The position numbers were made by a program, and so were the translations under genes. The notes under the pieces are model-generated. The model saw only the letters and a list, made by a program, of their open reading frames with translations. It was not told where the DNA came from and did no database searches. A stretch of 64,000 bases of DNA from Isoetes taiwanensis (Eukaryota; Streptophyta; Lycopodiopsida; Isoetales; Isoetaceae), in NCBI GenBank assembly GCA_021234155.1, contig JAJEKV010000015.1, positions 2,948,852 to 3,012,851 on the forward strand, given 5' to 3'. Shown here one piece after another: positions 1-56,814 of the stretch. Positions within the stretch are counted from its first letter, which is position 1. Each line of letters opens with the position of its first letter.

Positions 1-3000
1 CATGAAGCATGTGTATGAAATGGATGTAATCGTTGTGACAGTACAACCACCATGGTCTCTTCCTCTACTATAAAATAAATTGTAATGATAATATTTATAA
101 ATAAAAATTCAATGAATACTAGCACTTTATATGAAGAAAGTAAACTATTTCATTGGTTATAGATGTGTTTTTCAGTTTCTCGACTTGTCATTCTAGAAAT
201 GGAGGCCATTTATATTCCTTAAGTTTTTATTAAGCACAAGAAATAAATGTTCTTTTCAGCCAATAATGGGGATCAATCAATTCACACCTCATACGGATTG
301 AAATAATAGGGTTCCAAAAAGAGTGGGATAGCATGTGACCCACCTTAATTAATCACGACTTGTATATTTAGCATGTTAAAACTTAACCTAACATTTTATC
401 TTTTGGTTTTTATGTCAATTTTTGCTACTTTTTGGCCGACTTGAATTACTTAGTGTAAAAGGCCCTTTTGACAGTCAAACAATCGATTTGCGTGGAGTGA
501 CCCATGTGGTTGCTTTCTTCAAACTTGATTTTACTAGTAAGTCCAAATTGTATTTATATTGATAAAGCAACTACATACATCGCATATTTTCAAAACAAAA
601 CTAATAATCTCTCAGAGTTTTGTCTTTCCTGATCCTCCTGACTAGGTTCATATCCTTGGGCATCACCCTCAGCCTTTTCGCGTGAATGGCACACTCCCGT
701 GCATACTTTGTAGATAAGCTAAATCAGGCTCTGTCATGATTGTAACTTTCCCGTGCATACTTTGTCAGGCTCTGTCATGACTGTAACTTGCCAGAGATGC
801 AATCCCATGTTATCACCTATTGAGCCTACTCTAGGTTGCATCTCCATGGTCCAATAAGGTGGTCGCATTTCCCGTCCTGAAGTGTAGTGGCTCCACAGGC
901 AGCTAGACGATCGTGGGAACACATGTCCTTCCCCTACTGAACTTTCCAAAACAAGAGCCAGGCTGACATCTATAACTCTTAAGAAACAGGACAACACCAT
1001 TGACCCAGGGAGTGTCAGATCCATACTCGACCCACACGTGACCGATTATAAATCTAGCCCGCTATAGGATCCCAGTAGCCACGCTCAACAGGGTCCTCCT
1101 TCACTTTGCCATTGACCCCATTGTGTGGTGCTCAGTCACTCTATAGCCTTAATAGCCTGGTGGGCTCTATGCACAGGTTGTATATGTTCCATGAATGAAA
1201 GGGTCTAAACTAGGACCATCATCTAAATAATGGCTACTAGGTCTCTACCTTCCGTCCCAATACACAAGCGGTGCAAACATGAGGTCAACCAATATTGTAC
1301 ATCATCATAACCTGATAAATAACAAGAATAACTAAGCCTAATTCCTAATCACATGCAACTAACTTAAGTCTAGGGTTTATAATCAGAATTGCATGCTCTA
1401 GAATGACTCTATTAGAAGTATGACATACTAACTCATCTAGAATGCTAACTCCCAGATGAACTAGCTAAGAATCTACTCGAAAAGCCTGCTCCTGAAGAAC
1501 TCTCATGTCCCCGGCTGTTCTAAGGTCTCTATCACTTGCAAGCAGTTTGGAATAGATGCTTCTCCTCTGATGCACGTAAACTCCTGCAACAAGCTATGAT
1601 GTCGAAGACGATCCTTGAATCGGAGTTGTGGCCTTGGCTGGGATCGGGAAGCCGATGGAGCCAAAAGTGGCCTACGTTTGGAGTTTGGCCTTTTATGTAT
1701 TAAGGTTCACATGAAAGGCCACTTGACTCCAATAGGGTGCGTCCATGTGGCGGGTGACCTATAAGATGAAGGCACGTGGAAATGGGTTCCCCCGTAAGGT
1801 TGGCTACATTATATAAATAAATTATCCATGCCCCCCCACGTGGTGCATACAAGTCTACTAATGTAGAATTGTATGGGTGACATGGCCAAGGATATATGTA
1901 TTTATCTTTGTATATCCTAGGGAGCGTCCGCGATCCATAATTCATAAGTATTTGTATTATGCAAAATATAGAATGCAAAAAAAGTAAATCATAAGATTCA
2001 CACAATAGAAGCAACTAAATCAACTAAATCATAAGATTCACACAATAGAAGCAACATAAATAGGGTTTCTGTTACAAACGAAGGTTAGCCAACAAACAAA
2101 AAACCAAACATCTAGTAAACTACACCAAAACTTAGAAGAATTTCAATTTAGGCCTTGAGGGCAAAAGTATGCTAGTGGGTATCAAAGCTCACCACCCAAC
2201 TTAGATCGACACCACAGTTTGTACTATTCTATCATAGTAACTTGTTATTAATTGGAGTTGTTCATATTTCTATTGATTACCAAAACTTAGAAGAATTTAA
2301 ACAATTTTGCCAATCTATATGAGTCTTTGTCATGTGTCCCCAAAGCTTTTGATACCCACCCAAAAGGTACTTTTGCCCTTCACCCCAAAGCTCACCAAAC
2401 GGGCTCGCCAAAAGCAAGGATCACCAAAACAAGATATGCCCACCATTTAGGCTAAGGAACAAGAAGGCTAAGGAACAAGAAGAAACAAGCACAAAATTCA
2501 TGGAGACTAGAAGAAGGCTTGTATGGATCAAGAGACTGATAAGCAGGTTGGCGAGAAGGCACGATATGAAGGAGCAGAAGCACAAGGAGGAGGATCTCCA
2601 TCCAATAAGCGCACCTCTTCCCCTTATATAGGGATCAAGAAGCCTTTTCCAAAAAGGTAAAGGTACGTAGACCTTTTTAGGGTCTCAACCTTTTTCAAGG
2701 TTCCATAAATATCTCAATGGTTCACGTCTAGTTAAAAACAATTAACTTTAGACATAATAAAGGCAGCTTGACCATGTGAAATAGCTTTTGAGCTTATATA
2801 TAATGATAGTATGTAGAATCGTTGATGTTAGAAATTAATAACAATTGCAAACCTTAAAATTGTAAGTACTAATTCCATTATAAATATAGCAGAGCTTTTC
2901 TAATTTTATATTAAAATGACTCCATCTCACATTTCTTCTCAATTTTATGTGACAAAGAAAGATTTTGCAATGTTTCTACAAGTAGTCACATTTAAAACAA

Positions 3001-3074
3001 ACTAGAAAAGGATAACCACATCTAAAACAAAGAGAAAATAAAAGGAAGTAAAAAAAAGGGAGGGGGAGGTACAA

Positions 3075-3635
3075 TATAGAAGTTGGGTCTTAATTTTGCT
3101 CAACGGTGCATTTTGGCGACGACACGTGGCGACGCCAATATCGCGGAATGCCATTCGGGTCCCCTGATTCCGCTTTACCTGCTCTGCCGGTTTTCTTCAG
3201 TGTTTTATTTTAGGGTTCTGACCGATTGGCTTGTGTTAGGGTTTCGACCGCAAGAGGAAGCGGCTTGTTTTGCCGCCAAGAGGAAGCCTAAGATCCGAAA
3301 GCAAGCGAGAATGCATGCCGATTCGAAAGCGGCATAGGAAGCCCGAAGCGGATCCGAAAGCGGCATAAGAAGCCCGGCAGATCGAAAAAAAACACACCAA
3401 GCAAAACCGGGCAGATCCGGGCAAATCTGAGCAGATCCTGGCAAATGCAAATCGGGCAGTGCTTCAAAGTACAGGTAAATGCAACTCCGGCAGTGCTGCA
3501 AAGTTCGACTTCTTCAATTTTTCTTGTAGCAGAGTTCTTGTAGCAAAATCAATCCCCAACTTCTATATTGTAGAAAAACTGCGGTTGGGATGGCATTCCG
3601 GCTCCCAAAAGAGAGAGGAATGCCATCATCCCCTA
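3075..3635. mobile_element. 561-bp insertion flanked by TACAA
   Basis: Copy A has TACAA at 3070-3074 and again at 3636-3640 with 561 bp between. Copy B has a single TACAA at 38413-38417 and none of the 561 bp. This is an occupied site beside an empty site, so the segment most likely inserted after the duplication with a 5-bp target duplication. The inside is richer in GC than its surroundings, and GGAATGCCAT or its complement occurs near both ends. It codes for nothing I recognise. The superfamily is unclear. Confidence 0.7.
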
Positions 3636-3842
3636 TACAACAAAACAAATAGAGAGAGGGAAAAATAATTCCAATTTATTGAATTTGAAAAAAAAAAGAA
3701 TAAATAATTTCATGTCAACTCACATGAAGTAACATGTAGTATGTCCCATGAAGAATGTCATATGGAGCTGAAGTAACATGTAGTATGTCCCATGAAGAAT
3801 GTCATATGGAGCATGTGCATTGGGTATGCCGCATGGAGCATG

Positions 3843-5683
3843 TCAAATGGAGCACGTGCATTGGCATGTAAACGGTTGGGCTGAAGAATTATGGTAATAT
3901 GGGGACTCAAAAGGTGGTGACTCATACATATAAGGAGGTGGTGGCGAAGGTGATGTGGGAGGGGGTGATTTATATATGTAAGGAGGTGGTGGCGAGAGTG
4001 ATGACAAAGGTGGCGATTTGTAGACATGTGGAGGTGGCATCAAGGGTGATGGAGAAGGGGGAGATTTGTAGACATATGATGGTGGTGGTGAGGGCGATGG
4101 AGGAGGGGGTGATTTGTAGACAAACAGAGGTGGTAGGCAAGGGTGATGGAGGAGGGGGAATTTGTAAACATCTGGGATAAATAATTAAGGGGTGAGGGAG
4201 GCGGGGGGACTTGTAGACATATGGAGGTGGTGGCGATGGTAAGGGAGAAGGGGGTGATTTGTAAATATAAGGAGGTGGTGGCGATGGTGGTGGAGGAGGG
4301 GGTGATTTATAGATGTAAGGAGGTGGGGGGGAAGGAGCGATGGAGGAGGAGGGGATTTGTAGATATAAGGAGGTGGTGGGGAGGGTGATGGAGGAGGTGG
4401 AGATGAGTAAACATATGGAGGTGGGGATGGAGGAGGGGGGGATCTGTAGATATATGGAGGTGGCGGCAAGGGTGAGGGAGGAGGGGGTGATTTATAGACA
4501 TACGGAGGTGGTGGTGAGGGCGAGGGAGGAGGGGGTGATTTGTAAGTATAAGGAGGCGGCGGTGAGATTGAAAGAGGTGGCGGAGATGGATAGACATATA
4601 GAGGTGGAGGTGATGGTGATGGCGGAGGGGGGATTTGTAGATATAAGGAGGAGGTGGCGAGGGTGATGGAGGAGGGGTGATTTATAGATGTAAGGAGGTG
4701 GGGGAAGAAGGTGATGCAAGAGGAGGGATTTGTAGGCATAAGGTGGTGGTGGGGGAGGGTGATGGAGGAGGTGGAGATGGGTAAATATATGGAGGTGGAG
4801 GTGAAGGAGGAGGGGGGATTTGTAGATATATGGAGGCGGTGGGGAGGGTGATGGAGGAGGTGGAGATAGATAAACATATGGAGGTGGAGGAAAAGGGGGA
4901 TTTGTAGATATAAGGTGGTGGCGGCAAGGGTGCTGGAGGAGGGGGCGATTTATAGACATAAGGAGGTGGTGGTGAAGGAGATGGAGGGGGGGATTTATAG
5001 GCATAAGGAGGTGGTGGTGAAGGTGATGGAGGAGGGGGCGATTTATAGACATAAGGAGGTGGTGGTGAAGGTGATGGAGAAGGGGGAGATTTATAGACAT
5101 AAGGAGGTGGTGGTGAAGGTGATGGAGGAGGGGGCAATTTATAAACATAAGAAGGTGGTGGTGAAGGTGATGGAGGAGGGGGAGATTTATAGACATAAGG
5201 AGGAGGTGGTGATGGAGATGGAGGAGGCGGCGATGGGTAGACATAAGGAGGTGGTGGTGAAGAGTAAACATAAGGAGGTGGAGGCGAGGGGGATGGGGGA
5301 GGTGGTGAAGGGTAAACATAAGGCGGAGGAGGAGACTTGTACACTAAAGGTGGCGGAGACGGAGATTGATAAACATACGGTGGAGGCGGAGATTGATAAA
5401 CATACGGTGGAGGCGGAGGCGATGCATACACAAGGGGTGGAGGAGGGGAGGAATACTCCAACGTTGGGACCGGGACAAAAGGATGAGGATATGTAGGTTG
5501 TTGAGGATGTAACCATGGAGGGCGTAACCAAGGAGGCAACCAAGGTAAAGGATGAAAAAAGAATTTCGAATTTTTCTTTCTAGCCTCTATAATGGAGTCT
5601 CCAACGCCTTTGTTTGCAACATCTCGGGCAGCACAAGCAACAGCAAAAAACACGAACACCATTAAAACGTTTAGCCGCTTCAT
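3843..5683 (-). pseudogene. Extensin-like cell-wall hydroxyproline-rich glycoprotein, copy A (frameshifted)
   Basis: Extensins are secreted, hydroxylated and glycosylated structural proteins that are cross-linked through tyrosines in the plant cell wall. The start at 5683 opens a clear signal peptide (MKRLNVLMVFVFFAVACAA). A non-repetitive region with FFFHPLPWLPPWLRPPW follows, then dozens of SPPPP blocks alternating with YVYKSPPPP and YIYKSPPPP; Tyr-X-Tyr is the known cross-linking motif. The first frame stays open to about 4900, roughly 260 codons. The repeat pattern then continues in other frames (about 4877-4185 and 4043-3843) and ends with YMYESPPFESPYYHN before TGA at 3843. Several frame changes are therefore needed. 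They may be true decay or length errors in poly-G/C runs. Long antisense ORFs here are shadows of the repeats. Confidence 0.85.
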
Positions 5684-5750
5684 CTTTTCTTCACTTTTTC
5701 CAACTTGCTTTCCGAAATGTGAGTGAGTCCATTATGTAGGCCTTCCTGCC

Positions 5751-5760
5751 TATTTTTAAT
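5751..5760 (-). promoter_or_regulatory. Possible TATA element of extensin copy A
   Basis: The minus strand reads ATTAAAAATA about 70 bp upstream of the extensin ATG. The same motif at the same spacing is kept in copy B (39994-40003), while a nearby CTATAG is altered there. It is a weak match to a TATA box and rests on position and conservation only. Confidence 0.3.
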
Positions 5761-7751
5761 CTCTATAGCTCAAATATCTTTGAAAATTAGTCTGCCCAAA
5801 CAATTTATCAGCAATAATATCTTGGCCAAGAAATAGGGTGTGCATTGGTTATAGGTGGAACCATTGAAGGCAAGGGATAACCATTGAAAGGGGGAGACGT
5901 ATATACCTAGGGATCTTTACTCTTATATTTGAAAGCCTAGTAAGAAGATATAAAAAGGAGAGGCATCGAAATTATCAAAAGGAGAGAAGAAGCAACAGAA
6001 CGAAGACGAGGAGAAGGAGAGGGCCGCCATAGCTCCTCTCCATCTTAAGTATAAGCCCTCGGAGCTCGATCTGCCTGTAGATCTTCTATTTTTTTTGCTT
6101 CGGATTTCTTCGATCTCGCCTTTTTCCTGATCAGAACTAGCTCCCAGTAGTCGGAAGAGAGAGAGAGAGGCCAGTGCCTCGATCAACAATTTGGAGCCAG
6201 CTGGGTTATCGGAGTTGTACTCGTACTGTAAGCGCTTTCGGTTGTCATAATTTTAGCAAATAATCATTGGACAACTTGATCCTTCAACTCATATCGTCTA
6301 TTCATTCTCCAAATCGAAATTATGAAGCCGGATCCCGTTGAAGTTGCCTCACCAGCAGATAGTGTCAGAGGCCTTGATCTTACTTAAAGCTGGCGGAATG
6401 CTCCATTCAAGTGATAAAAAAATGTGCAGCAGATAAAAATCCTGCATCAAATGTGCAGCAGAGCGGATCCACAAGAACCGGATTTTGACATGCACAGCCT
6501 TATCTCTGTCTTCAGAGCCTTCAGAGTACTGTGTCAATTCGAACCATGACTTCTATATGCTGCCAAACAAATGCTCTGGCCATCAGACATCAGGCACCAC
6601 CGCACTACCAAAATTTCAGAATTATAATTTCCGACCTTCATCAACTGCTTCAACTCGCATTGAACTTAATTAAACGATGGGCTTCACTGGCGCTGCTGCT
6701 CTCTTTTATACAAAATCTAAGGCTCTAGAAGGCTGTAGCACATTCCAAGTAGCTTCTAGAACAGCCTCCATGCTTCGGAATTATTTAGGTGTTTACACGT
6801 GTTAATCCTAAGCATAGGGTTGCCCTCCAGTGGCCTCGGGAGTGTGTTTGCCTGTTTTTTGTTTTGGAGTTTTGTGTTGATTGAGATGTAGGCCTCAACG
6901 CATGGTCTAATGCATGCTTTTTTATCATTTCTATCTTTCTTGTGCTAATCAAAACCCAAAGCGAAAATGAAAAAAAAAAAAGCTTTCAGAAAGAGGGACA
7001 AGCATTCCTGGATGCGACGCATGGGTCTCTTTTACACCTGATGCATTTTTGTTAAAAACAAGATATTGAGGCTGGGATTTGAACCCAATCAAATACCACT
7101 ACTCACTATACCTGCAGCAACACAAAAACTCCACAGTCAAATTGGCAACTGGCCGATTCTCCTCTGCCTCCAACAAGTCGGCCTGAGCAAAAGCACTTCA
7201 CAACTCGGATTCAACAATCCGGATTCCTTCAGCTGTCACAGCTCCTTCTGTCTCCTCCGATCCTGGCTCCTATCTGGCTGTTCACAGATATGCCTTTCTC
7301 ACACCAAAAAATGCCGTAACCTAATCTCCCTGTCCGTCCCTCTCTGTCACAAACTTTTTTCAATTCCACGTCAGCATTAAAACAATAGTCATTTTGTCTT
7401 AAACTGTTAAATGCTGGATGATAACATTTTCAACAATTTTAAGAATGCAAGAGCATCACAAGCATTCTGTGGGTGGATTTTAGGAGTGCAAGGGCATCAA
7501 TTGTTGAGAAAGGGATCCTAGTAAAGACTTCCTCTCATTTAGTTCACTCAAACACCATGAAAGTTTCAGGATTTTTGATACATAAGTTAAGATACGCATG
7601 CTCAAATGTTTCACATAAATTAATTTCTCTTTATAATCTTAAAACTGGTTATGTTGTATCTCATCCCAAACTTTCATTGGCTCGCTTGGGTGAGATGGCC
7701 CTTATACCCCAAGGACTTACTACTCGTTGCCATACTAGCAGTAGATACTGT

Positions 7752-38487: not shown

Positions 38488-39926
38488 TCAACTCACATGA
38501 AGTAACATGTAGTATGTCCCATGAAGAATGTCATATGGAGCATGTGCATTGGGTATGCCTGCATGGAGCATGTCAAATGGAGCATGTGCATTGACATGTA
38601 AAAGGTTGGGCTGAAGAATTATGGTAATATGAGGACGGGGAGGAGCACTCGGAATTATGGTAATATGGGGACGGGGAGGAGCACTCGGAAGGTGGCGACT
38701 CATACATATAAGGAGGTGGTGGCGAAGGTGATGGGGAGGGGGGGATTTATATATGTAAGGAGGAAGGGGATTGTAGATATATATGGTAGACATATGGAGG
38801 TGAGTGGATGGTGATGGGGGGACTTGTAAGGATATAAGGAGAAGGTGATTAGGAGATGGATAGACATATGAGATGGGTATGGAGGTGATGGTGGATGGAG
38901 GGGGGGGGATTTGTAGATATAAGGAGGTGGTGGCGAGGGTGATGGAGGAGGGGGTGATTTATAGACATATGGAGGTGGGGATGGAAGGTGATGGAGGAGG
39001 GGGAGGGATAGATATAAGGTGGTGGTGGTGGGGAGGGTGATAAGGGGAGGAGGTGGAGATGGGTAAACATATGGAGGTGGGGATGGAGGGATGGAGGAGG
39101 GGATTTGTAAATATATGGAGGTGGTGGGGAGGGTGATGGAGGTGGGGGGATTTATAGACATATGGAGGTGGTGGTGAAGGGTGAGGGAGGAGGGGGGGGA
39201 TTTGTAGATATAAGGAGGGGGAGGGTGAAAGATGGAGGGAGGGGGCAAGGATTTATAGACATAAGGAGGTGGAGGTGAAGGTGATGGAGGAGAGGGGGGG
39301 ATTTTGTAGTTTACATAAGGAGGTGGTGGGGAGGGTGATGGAGGAGGTGGAGATTTATAAACATATGGAGGTGGGGTGGAGGGATGGAGGAGGGGATTTT
39401 GGAGATGGAGGAGGATGCAGAGGGGCGTATTTATAGATGATGGAGGAGGGGGCGATTTATAGGCAGGTGATGGAGGAGGGGGCTATTTATAGGAGGTGGT
39501 GGGGAGGGGGGAAGTAGACATAAGGTGGAGGTGGAGGCAAGGAGGGGTGATGGGGGGAGGAGGGTGAAGAAGGTAAACATAAGGGGGATGGGGGAGGAAG
39601 GAGACATTGTACACTAAAAGGTGGCGAGGCTGAGATTGATAAACATATGGTGGAGGCGGAGGCGATGCATACACAAGGGGTGGAGGAGGGGAGGAATACT
39701 CCAATGTTGGGATTGGGACAAAAGGATGAGGATATGTAGGTTGTTGAGGATGTAACCATGGGGGGCGTAACCAAGGAGGCAACCAAGGTAAAGGATGAAA
39801 AAAGAATTTCGAATTTTTCTTTCTAGCCTCTATAATGGAGTCTCCAACGCCTTTGTCTGCAACATCTCGGGCAGCACAAGCAACAGCAAATAACACGAAC
39901 ACCATCAAAGCGTTTAGCCGCTTCAT
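38488..39926 (-). pseudogene. Extensin-like gene, copy B (decayed)
   Basis: The first 98 codons from the ATG at 39926 are almost the same as copy A: signal peptide MKRLNALMVFVLFAVACAA, then FFFHPLPWLPPWLRPPW and the first SPPPP and YVYQS repeats. The frame then breaks. Downstream, SPPPP and YVYKSPPPP pieces continue in alternating frames (39248-38700), with more indels, shorter repeats and lost blocks than copy A. The tail includes an extra 36-bp duplication at 38631-38690. It is more clearly a pseudogene than copy A. Confidence 0.85.
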
Positions 39927-45834: not shown

Positions 45835-47308
45835 ATGAACTCTGCTGGCCAAGAAAACCTAAATTCTAAGACATTGCCTTTTTCTTCATTGTTTCTCCGC
45901 TCTTTCTAAAGAGGATCGTAGCTCTCTTGGCAAATCTTCAAAAATTTTGGCTGATCCTGTAAATTTCATTCATTTCGAAATTTTAAGGATTTAGCCCTCC
46001 TCGAGCTTAAATTGACACCTCTATCGATAAGACTCCAATTTGGGACAATCTCTCCAAGGATCCGAAAGTGCAATTGGCAACCGACTGATAAAATCCCCGC
46101 CATTGGTGTTCCTTTTCCATATGGGGTCGTGGAGGCCAAAGAAATGAAGCTTCGACCGATGAAGTTTGGGATAATATTCTTCAAGATGAGAGGCTGGACA
46201 TTGCTTCAAACCTCGCTTTTCGGCCCATGGTATTCATCTAAACTCTCCAATGGTTCTTGAAAACTGAAATGCCTCTCAAACTCTGCTGTTGTTATAAAAA
46301 TCAACAAGGTTGGGATCAGTATTGAAAAATTGTGGTCTTACCTGCTATCTCTTCAAAAAGGCCTATCTATCAAAGCTGTTTATTGGCTAAACTACCCGTA
46401 TATTATGGTTGAATGTGGTAGCCAAAGGTCTGCAAATTACCTGCTTCAAAGTGGCAGTCTAGTTTTCGAAAATTTCTATTTGTCTTTTATCAAATGGAAT
46501 CCTAAGCATTTAACTGCTGATCTCAAAAACTTTCATGTTGCCTCAACCTCTTTGTTTGGCTTAAATCCCATCTACTGGAATGAGGAATCAATCAAAAGCC
46601 TATTCAACTCTATTGGCAATTATGTCTCTACTGTCTATGCCCCATATAAGCTTCCTGTTGTCTATGTCCAAATTGATATATCCAAAGAAATTCCTATTTT
46701 CATTCCTTTCACTGACTGTTTTGGCCAAAAAACATCCTTGGATCTAAGGTGGAATGGTTTACCTCCTATTTGCTCTAATTGTGAATTTAGGCATTTCTGG
46801 TATACTAACTGCAAGGAGAAGGAAACTCCAGATTCAATTTCAAAGGAGAAAATTGAATCTACCATCCCTTCCTTGCCTGCTCAATATCTAATTCCAGAAA
46901 AGCAGCAAGAAGACAGGGCTACTACTTGGAAAAAGGTTAATGGTAGCACAAGAAGAATTGCCAAAAAAAGGTTGGAAAAGGGTATTCAAATTGGTGTAAA
47001 TTCTCAATTTGCTGCCAGACACAAAGACTTCTCAATTTCATCTGAAACTATTACTGATTCTGAAAGATACAAAGCTAAAGGAAAAAGCTAAAGTGGATGT
47101 GGATAATTCTACTAAGGATTTACATTATACCTTGACTCAGATTGCTGCTGACTCTAAATCCTTGAGGTATCAAAGTCATTATTCAAACTCGAAATGGAAT
47201 CTATCAAATTGGATTCCTGCCAAAGGCACGAGAGATTCATTAACTAAGGAAATTCAGGCAAAATATTCTCTGAAGAATAAGGTGACAGGAAAAATATCAA
47301 AAGCACAA
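45835..47308 (+). pseudogene. LINE ORF1, 5' part (DUF4283-like, zinc knuckle)
   Basis: ORF1 encodes the nucleic-acid-binding partner of the LINE particle. A plausible start at 45835 reads MNSAGQENLNSKTLPFSSLF. Frameshifts follow until a long open stretch at 46330-47091 with VYWLNYPYIMVECGSQRSAN, FGLNPIYWNEESIKSLFNSI and VVYVQIDISKEIPIFIP, the DUF4283-type fold of plant L1 ORF1. A zinc-knuckle-like CSNCEFRHFWYTNC follows. A basic region comes next, then a frame change, and the transposon interrupts it at 47309. Confidence 0.8.
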
Positions 47309-47339
47309 AACAAGGTGACGGTGCAAACGCACTAATGAC
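47309..47339 (+). repeat. Left terminal inverted repeat
   Basis: Begins AACAAGGTGACGGTG and ends AAACGCACTAATGAC. It is the reverse complement of 56780-56810 except for one C/T difference. Confidence 0.92.
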
Positions 47340-47534
47340 CTGTGGTGCAATTGCAGATTCCTTTTTCCAAAAAACGTAAATTCGGCAGTTTTGACCATTA
47401 AAAAAAAAACAACTTAAAAAAAAAAGTTGCATTCCAAATATGGCCATTTTAACAGCGGGCGACAGATTTTGTGTTAAGACACACTAAGAAAATGCACTTT
47501 CTTACGAAACAAAATACAAAGGGAAAGAAGGAAG

Positions 47535-47550
47535 TCTATGCGCGCATAGA
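47535..47550. repeat. Isolated palindrome
   Basis: TCTATGCGCGCATAGA, a perfect 16-bp palindrome just beyond the 3' end of the methyltransferase gene. Confidence 0.9.
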
Positions 47551-47623
47551 CAATAAAGTTATATTTCAATAATATAATACAATAATATAGGCACATAAAA
47601 AAAATTCATTTTTTTAGCACACA

Positions 47624-48813
47624 CTATATATCAAGAGGAGGTTCCTTGTGAGGAAGTTCATCATCAGAATCTGGAGGAGGGAGAACCTTAGTAGAGCTAT
47701 CAGGATTAACTTCCTCAGTGTCTGAGGCATCCTTCTCTTCGTCAACCTTTTGAATCTCTTCCACAGGAACAAGCTCGACGAACTCTGCCGGATCGTTTGT
47801 GTTCCCGGTGAGTGGCGGCAAAGGCTCTGAGCTTGAAGTTGCGGGATTACCATCCTTATCCTTAAGGCCAACCTCCTGCTTTTCATCGGGCAGGCTGTGC
47901 AGGGAACTTATTCTGGATTTTATATATACCACAGAATCCTTATCAAAATCAATTGCAAGGCAGTTGCGACCCTTTTTTAAAGCACAAGCCAAGGTGGTCC
48001 CTGACCCTGAGAAGGCATCGACGACCCAGTCACCTGGCTGTGAAAACATCTCTAAAAGGGTATTAATGAGCTGTTGAGGCTTCCGATAAGGATTGACTAT
48101 CGACCACCGTGTACCGGTCCATCAATTCTCAATGATCGCGTGAATTGAAACGCATTACGCAAGTCCATGCCAGCAGTATTATAATGCAAAATGCTTCTCT
48201 GCCCACCAATGCTGTGGTAACCAATGTGCATCTGTTCCCAAACATTTACAAGCCTTGCACCACCGCCATTTCCTCTTACATTCGTCTTCAACCTGCAACC
48301 GCAACCAATGAGTTATCGTAAGGCGCGCGCATAGCAAGAAGAAATAACTTACCAAATGGCTGGCTCGTAAACAGCTTTGCGAAGGTGCTCTCTCATTGCA
48401 GCTTGCACCATACCCGCCTGATTTTGAATGAAAACTACAATCCTCCAAAGAGGTGCAGTATTGATTTTGGCGAAACGTCTCAAGAAAGAATCAAATTCAG
48501 CATAAGTAAATGGAGAATCATCTCCACGGCTATCAGGTAGCTTGAACCCATAAGGAATATCAGCAATACATAAAGAATAATTGCCAGGTTTCAATGTATG
48601 GTCAAGTTTGACACAATTTCCATGATATATCTGGTATAAACCTTTCAAATTCTGTTGGTACAAAACTTTGCTCAGCTTCTTCCTTCTTCTTAAGCTTTGC
48701 GCGCTCTTCCTTAGCAAGTCTAACCATGTTAAGAAACCCTGGCGGCATCGGGTCCTTCTTTTTCTAAAACCACAGAACACAGCTTTAGTACAAACAAGAA
48801 GACGAAAGTTCAA
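47624..48813 (-). pseudogene. DNA N4/N6-methyltransferase domain (beta class)
   Basis: The domain transfers a methyl group from S-adenosylmethionine to adenine or cytosine in DNA. Reading with the gene: KKKDPMPPGFLNMVRLAKEE, then after a one-base frame change LYQIYHGNCVKLDHTLKPG and IADIPYGFKL (catalytic motif IV; most relatives have DPPY). A 60-bp intron (48352-48293, GTAAGT to TTGCAG) splices in frame to KTNVRGNGGGARLVNVWEQM. Then NPYRKPQQLI and the SAM-binding VVDAFSGSGTTLACALKKGR. The catalytic motif comes before the SAM motif, the beta-class order. A tail rich in Asp, Glu and Pro ends at 47624. The intron argues against bacterial contamination. Confidence 0.85.
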
Positions 48814-49151
48814 AGTGTTTTCCTATGCGCGCATAGCAACATAGTAACGGACTTCTTGTGGTGCTATGCGCGCATAGACATACAACAAGAAAACAGCGTT
48901 GGTAAGAAGAAAAACAAAGGTTCCTCAAGTGTTAGCCTATGCGTGCATAGCACCACAAAGAATGGACTTCTTCGTGAATGCTATGCGCCAAGATAGCCAC
49001 ACAACAAGAAAACAACTTATAAAGAAGAAGAAAAAAAACAAAGGTTCTAAGTGTGAGCCTATGCGCGCATAGCACCACAGTAACAGACTTCTTGTAGTGC
49101 TATGCGCGCATAGGCAGACAACAAGATAAGTAGGGGAACAAGAAATTTTAC
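48764..49151 (-). other. 388-bp intron carrying a palindrome array
   Basis: Donor GTAAAATT at 49151 and acceptor GTTTTAG at 48764 join ...SNFTNW to KKKDPMPPG in frame. All six palindromes of the first array lie inside it. Confidence 0.7.
48823..49113. repeat. Palindrome array I (in an intron)
   Basis: Palindromes start at 48823, 48864, 48937, 48981, 49059 and 49100. Four are perfect CTATGCGCGCATAG, one has a central T, and one combines CTATGCGC with CAAGATAG. Where unbroken the spacing is 41 bp, and the DNA between them shares ACTTCTTGTGGTG. Confidence 0.9.
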
Positions 49152-49152
49152 C

Positions 49153-50331
49153 CAATTTGTAAAATTTGAAGCGTATTGGTTTATCTTTTCATCCGACGAC
49201 CATGTAGGGTATAATTCTTTAACTTTTTCCCTGTGTGTCACGCTTAAGGTGGACCATGAGTTGTCACGACAGAGTGCACAATCCTTTTGGCTGCAAAAGT
49301 AAGGAGTGTTAAAAATCGGGGGAACGTAAACTACCAAATGAGGACTAGCAAGAACTTCTTTGTTTGAATTCACCCCATTTCTTCCAAGCTAAAGTGGCCA
49401 TTCACCACCTTTCGCAAAGCACCTCACAAACCTTTTCTCAGATTTTTTAGACCTTGCATTTCCCGCCAAACCATGATACCCATGTCCTTCTGTTTAGCAG
49501 GTTCAGTTTTTTTTCTTTTTGGATCCTTCGCCTTCCCTTTATATTTCAGTGTACCATCAGCAAACATATCAAAAAAAAATTCTTGAAGTTCCCAGCATGG
49601 AATAAAATAACGGCTAAGGTTAGCCAAATGGCTATTTTGTCGCAGTTTTGCTAAGAAAAACGGCTAAAGTAAATGGAAAAAATACCCAAAAAAAAGAAAT
49701 TTTAGCCCAATTTTTTTGCCGACCAAGTGAGTTCTTAGGTCAAATAACCAAACCTTTACCTCCAGACATATCCATCAGGACATCGATTAGCTAAACCTAA
49801 GATCGAGTGGGCCTGGAAAAATGGATAGATTAGCACAAAATCTAACACCAATGTATGTACTAATTTTAAGAAATTTCAAATAGGGTTTATATTTTTCCTT
49901 TTTTTTCCACTTTCTTTCTTGTTCCAAGTACAAATTTGAAGCATTAGAGGAAAAGGAACAATGGAGTCCCCTTTTTTTTTAGATTTTTGAACATGTTCAT
50001 GTATATTTGTGTCTTGATTTCTGTATTTACAATAAATTCAATGTCTTTGCCAAAATGCTTGGATTTTTTTAAATTACTATAGCATGATGGCTAATATTTG
50101 CCTTTCCATTTTGTGAAAGTTTAGCCAAAAGCAAGAAACTGTGATGGAGAAAAACCATTTAGTTTAGCCAAGTGTTAGAAACTTCTTGCCCCAATTTGAA
50201 GGTAGTTTAGCTAAACCTATTTTGGCTACACTAAAATATAGAAGTAGTAATTTATTCCATGGTTCCCAGACCTAAAAAGGTACAAGAAAGAAATAAAGGT
50301 AAGAAAAGAACTTGGAGAAGAAAGTTATCTT
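49153..50331 (-). pseudogene. Linker exons of the ParB-like/methyltransferase gene
   Basis: Exon about 49275-49153 reads QKDCALCRDNSW and VKELYPTWSSDEKINQYASN. Upstream of a short intron (about 49361-49277, ending TTTTGCAG) come WKKWGEF and then RYFIPCWELQEFFFDMFADG and RKKTEPAKQKDMGIMVWREM (49627-49424), with a frameshift between. A larger intron seems to fill about 50331-49640, where no coding pattern is seen. Function unknown; probably spacer between the ParB-like and methyltransferase domains. Confidence 0.5.
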
Positions 50332-51011
50332 ACACGTCCATGCCGAAAAGCTAGTTGGAAGTAGTTGTCGTACTTCACAAGAGATGCCTGCGGCATCACC
50401 GAGTTGTACGCCAAGCAAAGACTCAGAGCTGCTTCGCTCTTTAAGAGCCAGATATAGGTTTTGATCATCCTTTATATCTTTGTCACCTTTGTGCTCCGTC
50501 CTAAAAAGCTCGTATTCCTTGTGCATAAACTTAATCTTATCTATGAAGCTCATGCTCATCCGATATTCATTGTCCACGTTGTGGCTCATAGCAAGCAACT
50601 TGGCTTCAGAGTCAGTGACACCCACGTAAACAAATGCAAATATCCGAGAGAAGCAAAGTGTTCTTTAGTTTCTTTTAAAGCCGCCTCCTCGCCTTAAAAG
50701 CCGTGGAGTGCCACCCAAAACAAAATATTTGTAGCTTTCATCCTCTTCCTTTACAAAAGAATCCCTTTCATTTGCTTTGGGAAGGGTCAACAATGCAAAT
50801 GTGTGGAGTCAGTAGTCGCATTTGGTCATCCCTTTATAACGTTCCTTAAGAGCGCATAAATGACCAGAGTAAATTTTTCTTACTTGCAAAGGCCTCTCGC
50901 TGGACTCATCCTTTGGGCACAACTTAACACAATCAACCCGAAGTGCATGATACCAGGCACCACGACATCTTAACTCAATTTCTTCGAAAGCTTCCTAGAA
51001 GCCATGTCCTT
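50332..51011 (-). pseudogene. ParB-like domain
   Basis: ParB/sulfiredoxin-fold N-terminal domains bind DNA or nucleotides and sit beside DNA methyltransferases in many phage and bacterial proteins. Here, across two frames: RPLQVRKIYSGHLCALKERY, LHTFALLTLPKANERDSFVK, YKYFVLGGTPRL (like the family's GGxHR core, with the histidine replaced by proline), then VYVGVTDSEAKLLAMSHN, EYRMSMSFIDKIKFMHKEYE and a helical tail. A TGA after KCDY and a frameshift near 50690 show decay. The donor GTGTAAG at about 50331 ends the exon. The family call rests on motif pattern only. Confidence 0.55.
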
Positions 51012-51086
51012 TTCCCCATCGGGCAATCCTTGTACCCTTGGTGGCCGGGAGGCAAAGTTACCTTTGTGCCTTTTCTTGATGCCTTG

Positions 51087-51911
51087 CTAGTTGGTGGAGC
51101 AAATTGTCACCACCGTGCCCCGCCTTTGTAATAATTTCTTTTGGCTTTCTTTTTCTTGGCCTCTCCACCTTCCTCCTCGATTCAGAGAGGACGAAGGTTC
51201 ATCTTCAACCACTGTTGCCAACTCAACAGTTTCGATATTCGGGAGGATTAGCTTGGCGGTGAGATGGCATGGCATCCTTCAAACAGCCTTTTAGTAGGAG
51301 GTGTGCTTGAACTTAACAAAGGATCCTTGGTCAAAAGAAGATCTTTTAGTATAGAAAGAAGATCCCGCAAACAAAACCTATGATGTCATAGACCAAACAT
51401 GTTGGTAAAGTCTTCTCGGGGAAAATAACACTTACAATTTTACTCTTCATTCTTGTTCGAATGTAGCCTTGCATATCTTAGGAGAAGACAAACTCAAATT
51501 TTAAAAATGAACTATCCACGTAATATATATGTTGATCGCCCTTGGTGGTGGTCGTGCACTTGATGTGGTACATACGAAAGATTTTTAACATCTACAAGCC
51601 TGCCACATCTTCTGAAGGTTTCTAGATCCCGTGGTTTGCTTGCCGGCCTCCGAACAAATGTACAAAATATAAAAATGCGATTCTTTGGTTCACCGGTGCC
51701 CCCGACAAGCAACCCACCGCTGATCCTTACAAAAATAGGAGCCATCATCGGCCTCCCTCAAAATGCCGCTGACTTGGAGTCCAAAAGAAACATCCAAACT
51801 TGGATCCTTCTACGTTCTCCTCTTCTTGGCGACCTTTTGGGAGGATGCACCCGCATCATCCAGCTACTTGATCAAGGTTTTTCTTCTTATTTGAAATATA
51901 AAGAACGGTAA
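51087..51911 (-). pseudogene. N-terminal region of the ParB-like/methyltransferase gene
   Basis: Minus-strand pieces FVRISGGLLVGGTGEPKNRI, SKPRDLETFRRCGRLVDVKN and LSYVPHQVHD (51748-51512), then a gap and LILPNIETVELATVVEDEPS (51275-51087) with a basic stretch. They precede the ParB-like domain in the same direction. The start codon is unknown. Palindrome array II lies just upstream, so the promoter is probably in or near that array. Confidence 0.35.
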
Positions 51912-51931
51912 AGAATTAAGATATCATTTGC

Positions 51932-52268
51932 CTATGCGCCGCATAGCCAACCAATTCAACCAATTCAATAGTGACGGGGCATACTACAAAAAGAAAAGCT
52001 TTGTGTCTATGCGCGCCAAGATAGGCAAAGCTTTTTTGTGTCTATGCGCCAAGATAGGTGAGCTTATGAAAAAGCTTTGTGTCTATCTTGGCGATAGGAA
52101 AGCTTCTGAAAAAGCTTTGTGTCTATCTTGCCAAGATAGGCAGAGCTTCTTAAAAGCTTTGTGTCTATGCGCCAAGATAGTATAAAAGAGCTTTCTGAAA
52201 AAGCTTTGTGTCTATCTTGGCAGGATAGGCGAGCTTTTGAAAAGCTTTTTTGTCTATCTTTGCGCATA
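51932..52268. repeat. Palindrome array II (between the two divergent genes)
   Basis: Eight palindromes start at 51932, 52007, 52042, 52083, 52123, 52164, 52212 and 52253. All four half-site combinations occur: CTATGCGC with GCATAG, CTATGCGC with CAAGATAG, CTATCTTG with CAAGATAG, and CTATCTTT with GCGCATAG. From 52042 on the spacing is about 41 bp (35-48), with a shared spacer containing AAAAAGCTTTGTGT. Confidence 0.9.
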
Positions 52269-52949
52269 GGCAAAGCTTATAAAAAAGACTCAAACCGAAC
52301 AAAACATCCCATAAACATACCAGAAATGAGGAAGAAGGCCAGAAATACTTAAGAAATTGACATTTTTAATCGTTTTGGAGGCAGCCAAAACAAGCAAATA
52401 TTGCACAAAAAAAATTAAAAGTGAGCTAATTAAGTAGCAGCTAAGATCTTGACGTACCTTCCACCAGCCATTTTTGATGTGTCTATGCAAGCTTCTTATA
52501 GAATTCGATAGGTAAAAAAGTGGAGTAAGTGTGAAGGCGAGGTCGAAAGCCAGAGCTTTGGTATTCAGATGAGAAATGTGCGCCCTTCTTTCCTATTTAT
52601 TGTCTATGTTACTACTTGGATATTCTCTATGACATTATACATGAAGAGTGTAGCGTTCATTTCATGCAGTCCTTTATGGAGTGTCAAGCCCACACAAAGT
52701 CTCTTCGTCTTCCCCGCTCTTCCTTTACACTTAGTACATGCATAGTAGGTGTGGTGCATGTTTGTTTCTGAGTACAGGTATTTGTCCATTTGCAGCATGG
52801 ACGGCAGCCACTCAAGAAAAAGTTTTCTATCACCGCTTCGCGAATCTTACATTATTGCCTCGAGGCGGGTTCAAAGACACCCGGACAAAGCGGTGAAGAC
52901 TTAAGATTTACGTGATAGTCCATCCGAAGCTTTGTTTCTCCGTCACCAA

Positions 52950-55900
52950 TACAGTTAATGTGCGGGTCTACCTCCTTTCAAACTCCTTCACCAACACACG
53001 TTCTACAGCGTTCTTCTGTGTTTAGAACACCATCTCCCTCACTCCGACAAGACGTTTCCTCGGCCTCACCTACTCACACACCACCCACTCATTTTTTGAA
53101 ACTCCTTCACCTCTACAGAATTGCAACTGTTCCTTGCAAAACATAATTGATTCTCGTAGAGAGACCTCTTCAGCCAAGTGAAAAAGGCCCCTCGTTAACC
53201 CAAAGGGTCGCCGAGGGTGACCTACAAATGTTAAGGAGGAAATCTAGAACATTGTTTCCATGTTCCCGGTTGAGAGCGAGAAGGTTAACGACACAACTAT
53301 TGAAGACGAGCCCTGTTTGTACTCGAGAAAGACCTATCATAGGCTCGGCCCGTAACGTAAGCCCCGCAGAGCTTTTTCGACGCAGAGAAATCCATACAGC
53401 CAGGTGCAAAGAGATTTAAGAGGGACCCTACAAGAAGGGCATTTAGGGAAGATATTGAAATCGGTTGATGGGACTAACTTACATGAGGCAGCTAAAGGCC
53501 CTGGCTTGTTGTCAAAAAGAAGTGTATAATGAACTTCCCTTTTTCGTCTTTAAGGCAAACAAGACAATCCTTCTTGTCTATGTCTAAAGGTGACCAGGAA
53601 TCCTACCTAGCATATCACGTGAGGCCTGAACGAGGCGACAGTTTTTCATACTACGCGTTGAATGTAACTGTTTGCCACCGCTTTTCAAAAAATACATGCC
53701 ATTGGAAGTCATCGCATGTCAAGGGTACAAAAAAAGCGGTTAGTGAATCCATGCATTGACGCCAAACCGCCACCCAAAGAAAGTAGTTGGTGTAACCGCT
53801 TGGAAGCAAAAGCATGGTTGGTGGGCTTCTTTGACTCAAAGCGTGAGCAATTACCCAACAAGTCCTGCTTCATCATCTTACGGACAAAGATTACCAAGAA
53901 AGAAGTCTACATCATGTACAGAGATCTCTTCCGGTCTTCAAGTCGGTCGTGCTCATATCCTACTCTTACTTTTAAGATTGTGGAAGCAAGAATTCAATCT
54001 TGTTAGGATCCCAAAAAGGCACCGGTTCTCGTGATGTTCTACATGTTTAGTATTGAAGGAGAAAAGGTCCATGGCAAAGAATCTTCCGAGAAAAGTACGT
54101 TCTTTGATTCAAAGTATCGTTCCCATGTCCGGCGCCAGAGTAATGTGTTAACTAGATTTGTCTTTTGTCTGGCGCGCGCCGCATAGCGAGGACTCGGGTC
54201 TATGCGCCGCATAGCGTGCTTCCTATTTTCTCGTCGCTTGTCTATGCGCGCCAAGATAGCATGCTTCCTATTTTCGGACGCTTGTCTGGCGCGCCGCATA
54301 GCATGCTTCCTATTTTCTCGACGCTTTGTCTATGCGCCGCATAGCATGCTTCCTATATTCTCGTCGCTTTGTCTATCGCGCCAAGATAGCATGCTTCCTA
54401 TTTTCTGGACATTTTGTCTATGCGCGCATAGCATGCTTCCTATTTTCTGGTCGCTTGTCTATGCGCGCATGGCGTGCTTCTGTTTTCTGGTCGCTTGTCT
54501 ATGCGCGCATAGCGAGAAACTAAATACGTGTCATTGTGTCTATGCGGGCATAGCAAAGCAAGTGACTGTGATATTGACAAATGTCTTTGGTTACAGATCA
54601 AATAACTCAACAATTACAGGAACACAGAGAGGCTCAAGCCCTGGAAAGAAAGAAGCTTGCAAAGCACAGAAAAAAGCTTTGGAGAGGCCTCTTGAATACA
54701 TGTCTGTGGTAATAGATGGCATGGATCAAAAGAAGACGTCCCTTCCTCATTTTATAAATGTTCCTAAGGATTTAGATGAAGCTGACTTCTTGAAGTTGCA
54801 TCTAGTTGGTGCTTTAGTTTTTCAGGGCGTGGTTAAGTGCAGAGTATTTTTGACGTACCCAAATATACACAGTGATCCTAATCTCACGGTCACAATACTG
54901 AACAAGATTCTTCTGGCAACGGAGAAGTTGCCTTGAGGTTTCTCTACATGACTAGACAATACAAGCAGGGAAAATAAAAACCAAGTTCTATTTGCCTACT
55001 GTGCAATGCTGGTCCAGTTAGGTATCTTCCGAAAGGTCAAGGTTGGCTTCTTACTTGTTGGCCGACCAAATGTTCAGTCGATTTTCTGTAAGGTTGCGCA
55101 GGAAAAAGGCATTTTGTCTGTACTCTTTGTGCAGTGTGATCGAGAAAGCCTACAATCCAACACCAGTTGTCGAAGTGCTTAGCGAGACTTGTGATTTTCG
55201 TGAATTTGTTTTCCAACGACAGTCTGACACAGGTCCTGCTATTCACAAGTTGAATAATTTGACCTTTCAAAGATCATGTGAAGTTCTTTCTTAGAGAAGG
55301 TAATGCCATTCTTCAAGGAAAGTACTTTGTAACTTCGCATCCCCGGCTTCCGTGAGGGGGGGTTACAATTCTTGAGGCGGTTCCCGGGTTAAAGAAATGA
55401 GAAGAGCCATTCGCCAGCCCAATCGAAGAGTGCCATAGACAACACCGAGAAGAACAAAGACAAGAATCCTCTTGTCTCACTATCCAGATGGAGAAAAGCA
55501 TAAGCTCGTGTTTTAAGTACTTTAATGAGGAAGAAAAGGGCTGGTGGGAAAATTTCTTTGAAACCATGAAACACGTGACCATGTCCTTAAACAAAGATCA
55601 CTTTGGAGATTCCTTTTTCGTTGGCCTAGTAGCCAAACCTCCTCCCGCCGAGGATGCCCAAGGAATTGCGTAAGAATCTGTTCGCAATCAAGTTATCAAC
55701 AAGGAGCCCGTTGATCGTGCAATGTACCCAGGATCTCGACGTGCACTCAAGAAAAAGGAAGGTCAAACTCGAGAAACTTGCGGATCTGCGCAGAAAAGGA
55801 ATGCTAGTAATTGTACCTTCAACCGACGGCGATGACGAAGAACGCCCTTTTGGATTGCAAGGGTTAAAGACATTGTTTATAAAGACAACCTACCCTCGGT

Positions 55901-56302
55901 GATAAAAGTTCACCGGTATGCCACTAAGGATACTGAGATCCATTTGTTGGTCAAGATGATCCTGTGATAATTCCTTTTAAGAAAGGACGGAAAACAGTGA
56001 ATAAGAATCACCTAGACAATCTGGACCTGGCTGAAACTCAAGTCTTGGCTTACGATTTTACTTTAAAGGTTGATAACAGACTTCGCAGAACAACAGTAAA
56101 CTTGTTGAAGTCTTTCTGCGAGGATAGCGAGGACGGTTTGAACAAGACGAGGATAGCGTTTAACTGTTAGCTCTTCCACCACATCAAGTTTTATACCGAG
56201 GAGAGTGTCAATGAGGAGAGTGATCACCAGTTTGAAGGCATTGATGAGTACGACGACATTCCAATACCTGCTCTTCTTAAAGGGCGTAAGCTACTCGTGT
56301 AA
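52950..56302 (+). pseudogene. Transposase-like protein, decayed
   Basis: Several frames give, in order: EAKAWLVGFFDSKREQLPNK and ITKKEVYIMYRDLF (about 53800-53930), RIPKRHRFS with a CxxC-like CSTC (about 54010-54050), an intron (about 54138-54597) containing array III, QLQEHREAQALERKKLAKHR, YMSVVIDGMDQKKTSLPHF (about 54702-54753), TRLDNTSRENKN minus a frame break (about 54952), VKVGFLLVG (about 55036), ADQMFSRFSVRLRRKKAF, then WWENFFETMKHV and a C-terminal stretch with FWIARVKDIVYKDNLPSVIK that looks like a small beta-barrel reader. Stop at 56300-56302. I associate the DGMDQ / LDN-REN-KN / DQMFSR series with large uncharacterised transposase-like proteins (Pfam DUF7869, from memory). Many frameshifts and stops; the 5' end is uncertain. 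Confidence 0.6.
54170..54553. repeat. Palindrome array III (probably in an intron)
   Basis: Ten palindromes start at 54170, 54200, 54242, 54286, 54330, 54373, 54418, 54459, 54499 and 54540, that is every 41-44 bp after the first. Most are CTATGCGC(C)GCATAG; two pair CTATGCGCG or CTATCGCG with CCAAGATAG; two begin CTGGCGCG. The spacer is ATGCTTCCTATTTTCTSG followed by CGCTTTGT, different from the spacers of arrays I and II. The open frame through it is a by-product of a repeat unit near a multiple of three. Confidence 0.92.
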
Positions 56303-56370
56303 TTTGAATATTTGTACAGCTGTACATGACTAGTTTGTACAATGTAAGTCTTTCAAACTTAGGATCCCTG

Positions 56371-56449
56371 CTATGCGCGCATAGCATTTTGCAATTTTTG
56401 TATCTTTTGTAGCAACTATTTTTGTGCCTTGCCTATGCTGCCAAGATAG
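56371..56449. repeat. Two isolated palindromes near the right end
   Basis: CTATGCGCGCATAG at 56371-56384 and CTATGCTGCCAAGATAG at 56433-56449, just after the transposase-like gene ends. Confidence 0.9.
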
Positions 56450-56779
56450 CATGTGTGTCTTGCTCCTTCAAAGAATAAAAATGTATACGGCTCCATTTTA
56501 TGGTTTCTGTCTTTAAAATTTGTCAAGAATTTGCTCGTTGTTTCATTTTGCGACTTTCTGAATGTGTACCTAAAACAATTAAATTAAATTATTATTTTTA
56601 TACCTAAAATGGGGATGTCAAATTAATAAGACGCCAATTTTTTGGTAATTTTGACCCCTAAGATGGCTACCGAATTCGTAAATTTAGGGTCATTTTTTTA
56701 ATTGACCCCCCAAAAGTGGCTGAATTTAAGGGTATCTTAGGGTATCTTTGAAAGATGCTTTTTATTAGTGCAAACGCAA

Positions 56780-56810
56780 GTCATTAGTGCGTTTACACCG
56801 TCACCTTGTT
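56780..56810 (-). repeat. Right terminal inverted repeat
   Basis: Reverse complement of the left terminal repeat with one mismatch in 31. ACAA follows immediately, as it precedes the left repeat. Confidence 0.92.
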
Positions 56811-56814
56811 ACAA

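Follow-up and report, generated by a model that had tools for sequence, protein, structure and literature searches.

The closest described counterpart of the element reported here is Sola1-1_Ec32 of Ectocarpus, in which a 1104-aa protein with ParB-like and N4C/N6A methyltransferase domains is encoded opposite the transposase (PMC12477816). The same account reports similar proteins from green and red algal transposons and already proposes that the element's own sequence is bound and marked; Iyer 2011 and Petroll 2025 stand in its reference list. In Bacillus cereus, an adenine methylase with a fused ParB domain has been described (PMC5512222). In Arabidopsis, the VANC protein of VANDAL elements binds short tandem motifs in the noncoding parts of its own family (PMC5735166). 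The presence of N6-methyladenine (6mA) in plants has been questioned, and some species that carry 6mA together with 5mC are reported to bear the former on expressed genes and the latter solely in transposons (PMC12695648).

We analyzed a window of 64,000 nucleotides from Isoetes taiwanensis, by which we mean the whole stretch of DNA under study, at 2,948,852 to 3,012,851 of contig JAJEKV010000015.1. A transposon carrying a DNA methyltransferase gene had been predicted here, and its content had been thought undescribed; the latter view has to be given up, as a ParB-methyltransferase opposite the Sola1-1_Ec32 transposase is already in print (PMC12477816). The kind of gene pair is already known, and the Isoetes family is a new land-plant variant of it; among the top-ranked literature entries, judged by title and abstract opening, no land-plant ParB-methyltransferase transposon was found. 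Our additions are the land-plant family itself, the palindrome arrays and their co-divergence, a probable BAH domain and a selection test.

Ends, copies and subfamilies of the element

The segment from 47309 to 56810 is one of many copies, in the 1.66-Gb assembly, of a DNA transposon that ends in 31-bp terminal repeats and duplicates 4 bp of its target. The 31-bp repeat has two sites in the window, at 47309 to 47339 (+) and 56780 to 56810 (-), which differ by one C/T difference; with up to 3 mismatches allowed, the window holds no further site, and 0 would be expected by chance, in line with the original prediction that these inverted repeats form the ends. Both are flanked by ACAA (47305 to 47308 on the left and 56811 to 56814 on the right), and the frame of the interrupted LINE rejoins without a stop once the insert and one ACAA are removed, again as predicted.

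The left 332 bases recur at no fewer than 40 places in the genome with 89 to 100% identity (40 scored of 511 candidates). Twenty of the 39 other left-end places were taken as a sample, giving 21 loci with the window. The right repeat lies within 10 kb in 12 of the 21 and was not found within that distance at the other nine (L011-L014, L017, L022, L023, L025 and L026). The 4-bp duplication is perfect in 11 of the 12 two-ended loci and has one mismatch in L027 (flanks compared by eye), and full copies of subfamily A measure 8.0 to 9.5 kb. An "ACAA-type" target was rejected: the predicted length of 4 bp recurs at many insertions, and the sequence varies by site (acaa, ctct, ctca, tata, tttg, tagc, tgat, taga, aata, agct). 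If the unit were an assembly join or a chimera of unrelated genes, the broken frames of the window copy would be in keeping with it, but copies at other sites, each with its own 4-bp duplication and with identical gene order, already contradict this reading; we give it next to no weight and reject assembly artifact as a sole explanation. We regard it as close to certain that the element is real and its gene content as described below.

The window copy itself is decayed or poorly read. A 666-bp element with an 8-bp duplication is nested in exon 4 of its methyltransferase gene, and stops and frameshifts occur in both genes alike. In none of the 12 full copies are both genes open. The window copy and L009 share one insertion site; their flanks and roughly their first and last 500 bp differ little, and their interiors differ by several per cent with many small indels (in the worst 250-bp bin, which falls in a palindrome array, 52 of 214 aligned bases). 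This pattern fits a noisy long-read assembly polished with short reads from the unique flanks alone, although the interior differences may instead reflect older divergence. The broken frames of the window copy may likewise stem from unpolished assembly, and its odd palindrome spellings may be base-calling errors, whose rates by sequence class in the 12 copies speak neither for nor against a link to base modification.

The methyltransferase has at least 195 matches in the genome, with 138 of 3947 candidates scored. Sorted by eye among about 150 listed matches, these form three subfamilies with overlapping identity limits: A near 85 to 100% (some decayed), B at 66 to 86% and C at 48 to 60%. The original prediction had named methyltransferase genes without terminal repeats as evidence against it; the one B and two C loci that were read, picked by methyltransferase match, all lie inside terminal repeats with 4-bp duplications (TATG in L031 of B, TCAC in L030 and GGAT in L029 of C; ends by eye). 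L029 is a 4.1-kb deletion derivative that lost the first exons of the ParB-methyltransferase gene and most of the transposase and kept the ParB and methyltransferase exons. Two further loci came from the transposase side. L041, picked by transposase match, carries subfamily C palindromes, an exon 2 assigned to subfamily C by eye and an open frame of 987 codons; the stretch read, which stops short of exons 6 and 7 on the left, showed no exon for ParB or the methyltransferase. L040 is a more distant relative (46.6% over residues 407 to 940), in which 10 kb held no palindrome array. Using the proteins of subfamily A as queries, tblastn (E 0.01) found no methyltransferase or ParB there, although a more diverged enzyme could escape this search. 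The pair may therefore not be needed by all relatives of the transposase.

Two divergent genes and the selection acting on them

Genes were modeled on a majority sequence derived from the 12 full copies. The transposase gene (+) consists of two exons with GT..AG ends and is free of stops over 1000 codons in the majority reading; in the window, exon 1 spans 52797 to 54094 and exon 2 spans 54597 to 56302. The DUF7869 profile matches pieces of the window copy at E 2.2e-5 and 9e-9 and a reading from other copies at E 2.6e-51. The protein, of about 1000 aa, has an RNase H/DDE-like fold encoded in exon 2, with three acidic motifs at 54697 to 55075, and a probable C-terminal BAH domain at 55795 to 55957; it is probably a DDE enzyme. 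An RNase H-like catalytic domain, terminal inverted repeats and duplications at independent sites together agree with a DNA transposon of the DDE class. The 4-bp target duplication agrees with the Sola superfamily (Sola1/Sola2), and our assignment of the DUF7869 transposase to Sola is a guess. A cut-and-paste DNA transposon of Sola-like kind is the best explanation of the element.

The ParB-methyltransferase gene (-) diverges from the transposase gene and has seven exons with GT..AG ends in the majority reading. In the window these are exon 1 (52458 to 52471, with the start codon and donor GTACGT), exon 2 (51436 to 51889, a domain without a Pfam match), exon 3 (50334 to 51364, the ParB-like domain, its frame broken here), exon 4 (49360 to 50271, split by the nested element at 49596 to 50261), exon 5 (49152 to 49290), exon 6 (48353 to 48763, with the DIPYG motif and the N-terminal half of the methyltransferase) and exon 7 (47624 to 48292, with the FSGSGTT motif and the C-terminal half of PF01555, placed by Pfam and mapping, its frame also broken). 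Apart from exons 2 and 7, where the majority base brings in frameshifts and single copies (L015 and L016) are open, the exons are open in consistent phase; the spliced majority reading is accordingly not itself open.

The encoded protein thus begins with a domain that has no match in Pfam, continues with a ParB-like region and ends in a PF01555 methyltransferase. PF01555 is matched by exon 7 of the window alone (E 5.4e-14) and by two exons of L016 (E 8.8e-17); the N6_N4_Mtase score of 62.2 bits compares with a curated cut-off of 26.7, and subfamily C reaches 70.8 bits. For METHYLTRANSFERASE, the closest solved relative is CcrM (6pbd; E 6.6e-13), which is also the best NCBIfam relative, with 57.8 bits, far under the model cut-off of 830 bits. 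The order of the motifs is, we take it, that of the beta class. With PF01555 and DUF7869 matches on opposite strands, the predicted transposase-like gene and the divergent multi-exon gene joining a ParB-like domain to a beta-class methyltransferase are both borne out. The catalytic motif IV of N6_N4_Mtase is [DNS]PP[YF]; the copies read from subfamilies A, B and C have DIPYG instead of DPPY, and the relative P0122 has DIPHG. Active rRNA N6A enzymes with N-I/L-P-Y exist.

The ParB-like region gave a moderate hhalign match (78%, E 1.8e-5) to eight ParB sequences, seven of them from plasmid records, in which its GERR box lies over GGxHSxxARR and its ENxxRE over HNxDNEYR. It gave no match to one single ParB and no ParB family in a Pfam scan; the ParB profile matched nothing among PDB sequences, and a plasmid search with the region returned one match only, at E 9. 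Viral contigs scanned with the C-terminal methyltransferase frame of the window gave nothing useful. Ten protein relatives were listed. Three (P0122 to P0124) come from EukProt with Gb_ names, a prefix that presumably stands for Ginkgo; the best reaches 31% over 86%, and the fold model of P0123 is poor (pLDDT 41). P0125 is a 579-aa relative without a methyltransferase match, and the six others are weak PF01555 matches (E 0.002 to 0.007); the match of P0001 is confined to the ParB-like part. Listed phage and plasmid matches show 24 to 28% identity to the methyltransferase. Among phages, the best relative comes from Faecalibacterium phage Mushu, where the annotation shows a stand-alone gene of 666 bases.

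The gene pair keeps its divergent orientation across the three subfamilies. DUF7869 gave at least 150 matches in the genome (scored of 10021 candidates), and comparison of the first 99 of these 150 listed places with 110 merged methyltransferase loci yielded 25 divergent pairs within 20 kb, against 0.26 expected at random placement, and one pair in another orientation, between neighboring elements. The gap measures 4.0 to 6.1 kb in 20 of the 25. From the left end, a methyltransferase match lies within 2.5 kb at 20 of 40 places among the matches listed; the other 20 have no listed match.

Selection was estimated by Nei-Gojobori counts, with the methyltransferase taken from one B copy and two C copies. 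Between A and B, pS and pN are 0.782 and 0.059 in exon 6, 0.758 and 0.101 in exon 7, and 0.705 and 0.053 in the ParB part. Near-saturated synonymous sites against 5 to 10% nonsynonymous difference point to strong purifying selection on the methyltransferase and ParB exons; judged from these counts, the enzyme is kept by selection while synonymous sites were randomized. Between A and C, the methyltransferase (pN 0.29 to 0.34, pS saturated) changed faster than the transposase core (pN 0.163, pS 0.867). Within C (L029 versus L030), dN/dS is 0.055 in exon 6 and 0.42 in exon 7, values based on very few changes. The methyltransferase is very probably functional and useful to the element.

Phased palindromes in the noncoding parts

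A perfect palindrome, CTATGCGCGCATAG, which the original prediction had not mentioned, is common to subfamilies A and B, and all 8 exact occurrences in the window fall inside the element. One palindrome lies 3' of the methyltransferase gene (47536 to 47549) and another 3' of the transposase gene (56371 to 56384), and arrays occupy intron 5 (48823 to 49113) and intron 1 (51930 to 52290, mainly in degenerate spellings here) of the ParB-methyltransferase gene and the transposase intron (54160 to 54553, in units of about 42 bp). Although exons make up 66% of its sequence, the majority copy has none of its 26 palindromes there (22 are intronic, 1 is intergenic and 3 are in untranslated parts), and none of the 181 exact occurrences in the 12 copies is exonic. 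Genome-wide, the palindrome has 1551 exact places and its backwards sequence has 0.

The spacing is regular. Among 110 intervals shorter than 130 bp in the 12 copies, 70 are exactly 41 bp and 74 are 40 to 42 bp (intervals of 27, 63 and 70 to 78 bp also occur), and the three arrays are built with unrelated 27-nt fillers. The B copy L031 has 12 exact palindromes with short intervals of 40, 40, 42, 84 and 26 bp. The C copy L030 has 11 exact copies of a different palindrome, GTGTATTCCGGAATACAC, with short intervals of 41 (four times), 82, 122 and 123 bp, as well as 24 and 31 bp. With up to 2 mismatches allowed, C lacks the A palindrome; with up to 3 allowed, A and B lack the C palindrome. The switch from the A/B to the C palindrome coincides with a change in both proteins, and it cannot separate binding by the transposase from binding by the ParB-methyltransferase. 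The same period despite different fillers and a different palindrome argues for a protein that reads the arrays.

When A and B are aligned, their aligned bases agree most in the terminal 60 bp (88%), followed by palindromes (83%), exons (74%), untranslated parts (59%), intergenic sequence (58%) and introns (51%); with gaps counted as misses, palindromes have 66% and introns 42%. The alignment favors the palindromes, because any array member can pair with any other. Taken together, the palindromes are probably bound by a protein of the element; whether this would be the ParB-methyltransferase in particular is, on sequence grounds, evenly balanced.

A possible self-marking system and its known counterparts

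The best overall explanation, to which we would give about an even chance, is a Sola-like transposon whose ParB-methyltransferase binds and marks its own palindromes. The ParB-like protein would recognize the palindromes of its own subfamily, which a period of 41 bp, or about four turns, would line up along one face of the helix, and the methyltransferase half would place N6-methyladenine, or less likely N4-methylcytosine, on or near them. Such a base mark could label the promoters and introns of the element as its own and keep its genes expressible against host silencing, as VANC does, and the BAH domain of the transposase may bind the marked chromatin. By this analogy an antisilencing role can be suggested only tentatively; 6mA on expressed genes in some species (PMC12695648) makes an expression-keeping role plausible without demonstrating it. 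A complete self-recognition system, with subfamily-specific phased arrays, a ParB-like writer of a non-5mC mark and a BAH-bearing transposase, is possible, with somewhat less than an even chance.

Three other readings have to be weighed against self-marking. Dam methylation couples Tn10 transposition to replication, and the palindromes might be sites of the transposase or of accessory proteins, for the transpososome or a divergent promoter, with the methyltransferase marking something else, such as newly replicated copies. The majority copy has a palindrome some 230 bp from its left end, two more no further than about 440 bp from its right end and one in the intergenic region, positions that would suit this, as would the genome-wide enrichment over the backwards control; with 22 of 26 palindromes intronic and none in the terminal repeats, we nonetheless think it rather unlikely. 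That the palindromes are inert, a hairpin-prone unit spreading by replication slippage in freely varying introns, is unlikely too: absence from exons is expected of any neutral repeat, and tandem growth, for which the arrays themselves speak, gives equal spacing inside an array, but it does not readily account for a 41-bp period shared by three arrays with unrelated fillers and by C with another palindrome, nor for palindromes kept between A and B amid introns otherwise 51% identical in aligned bases. Finally, the methyltransferase could be passenger cargo that has nothing to do with the DNA of the element and acts, perhaps, against the host or as a regulator of genes in general. Its target site is a putative one, and the relative L040 has no detectable methyltransferase, but the fixed orientation with the transposase in three subfamilies and the strong purifying selection make cargo quite improbable.

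The family offers a defined land-plant enzyme that selection has kept, along with many copies of defined candidate target sites, and the swap of palindrome and protein between subfamilies is a ready test of specificity. Two questions would meet at one locus, namely, whether land plants have a non-5mC base mark and whether transposons mark themselves. Were self-recognition true, each subfamily would hold a writer/site pair that excludes those of the others, as orthogonal parS or modification systems do but in a eukaryote, and programmable 6mA (or 4mC) would have a natural source in a land plant, where such marks are disputed.

VANDALs are Mutator-like. They resemble the Isoetes element in having an element-encoded protein and element-specific tandem noncoding motifs, with motif and protein changing together; VANC, however, causes loss of methylation and its binding is shown (PMC5735166), whereas the Isoetes element has a predicted methyltransferase, another transposase and inferred binding. 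The DNMT retrotransposons of dinoflagellates and charophytes likewise carry their own DNA methyltransferase, but these are C5-cytosine enzymes in retrotransposons (PMC5890265), whereas the Isoetes DNA transposon carries an amino-methyltransferase. Fanzor-carrying Sola2 elements, with a transposase of 888 aa, share the 4-bp target duplications and a cargo gene and differ in their 12- to 13-bp repeats and in the Fanzor cargo (PMC3627910). CcrM (6pbd) and the bacterial ParB-methylases belong to the same methyltransferase family, whereas the Isoetes gene has seven exons and DIPYG for DPPY. Closest of all is Sola1-1_Ec32, with its divergent gene for about 1000 to 1100 aa with ParB-like and N4C/N6A methyltransferase domains (PMC12477816); the terms "palindrom" and "BAH" are absent from the main text of that paper. 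That element is a 21.5-kb unit of a brown alga, whereas the Isoetes element inhabits a land plant, measures 8.0 to 9.5 kb in subfamily A, and has three subfamilies and arrays of palindromes.

Deleted and distant relatives of the element

At L029, a locus belonging to subfamily C (the subfamilies being sorted by methyltransferase identity), a deletion derivative at 493-4597 is bounded by the repeats and a GGAT duplication; it retains the ParB and methyltransferase exons and is missing the first exons of the ParB-methyltransferase gene and most of the transposase. A more distant DUF7869 transposase, with open frames of 328 and 599 codons, is located at another locus, L040. No methyltransferase was detectable beside it (tblastn with subfamily A proteins, E 0.01, 10 kb read), and no open frames of at least 140 codons were found in the 5 kb preceding the L040 transposase (746-5780).

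Integrity of the window copy

The window copy (47309-56810) and L009 represent one insertion in two copies, with few differences at the ends and flanks and interiors that differ by several per cent, plus indels, as if repeat interiors had been left unpolished. The reading frames of repeats in this assembly are not to be trusted. Exon 4 of the ParB-methyltransferase gene contains a nested 666-bp element (49596-50261). Its ends are short and inverted (CATGGAATAAA), and the duplication that accompanies it is 8 bp long (GTTCCCAG); judging from the duplication length, we take the element to be hAT-like.

Other repeats

In the majority copy (the majority base of 12 full copies), some of the 27-nt fillers separating the array palindromes themselves form inverted repeats (AAAGCTT..AAGCTTT; CACCACA..TGTAGTG). 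In the window, tandem repeats with units of about 48 and 96-102 bp are present in two places (3912-5257 and 38852-39395); on visual inspection they resemble coding sequence of a proline-rich (extensin-like) kind, reversed.
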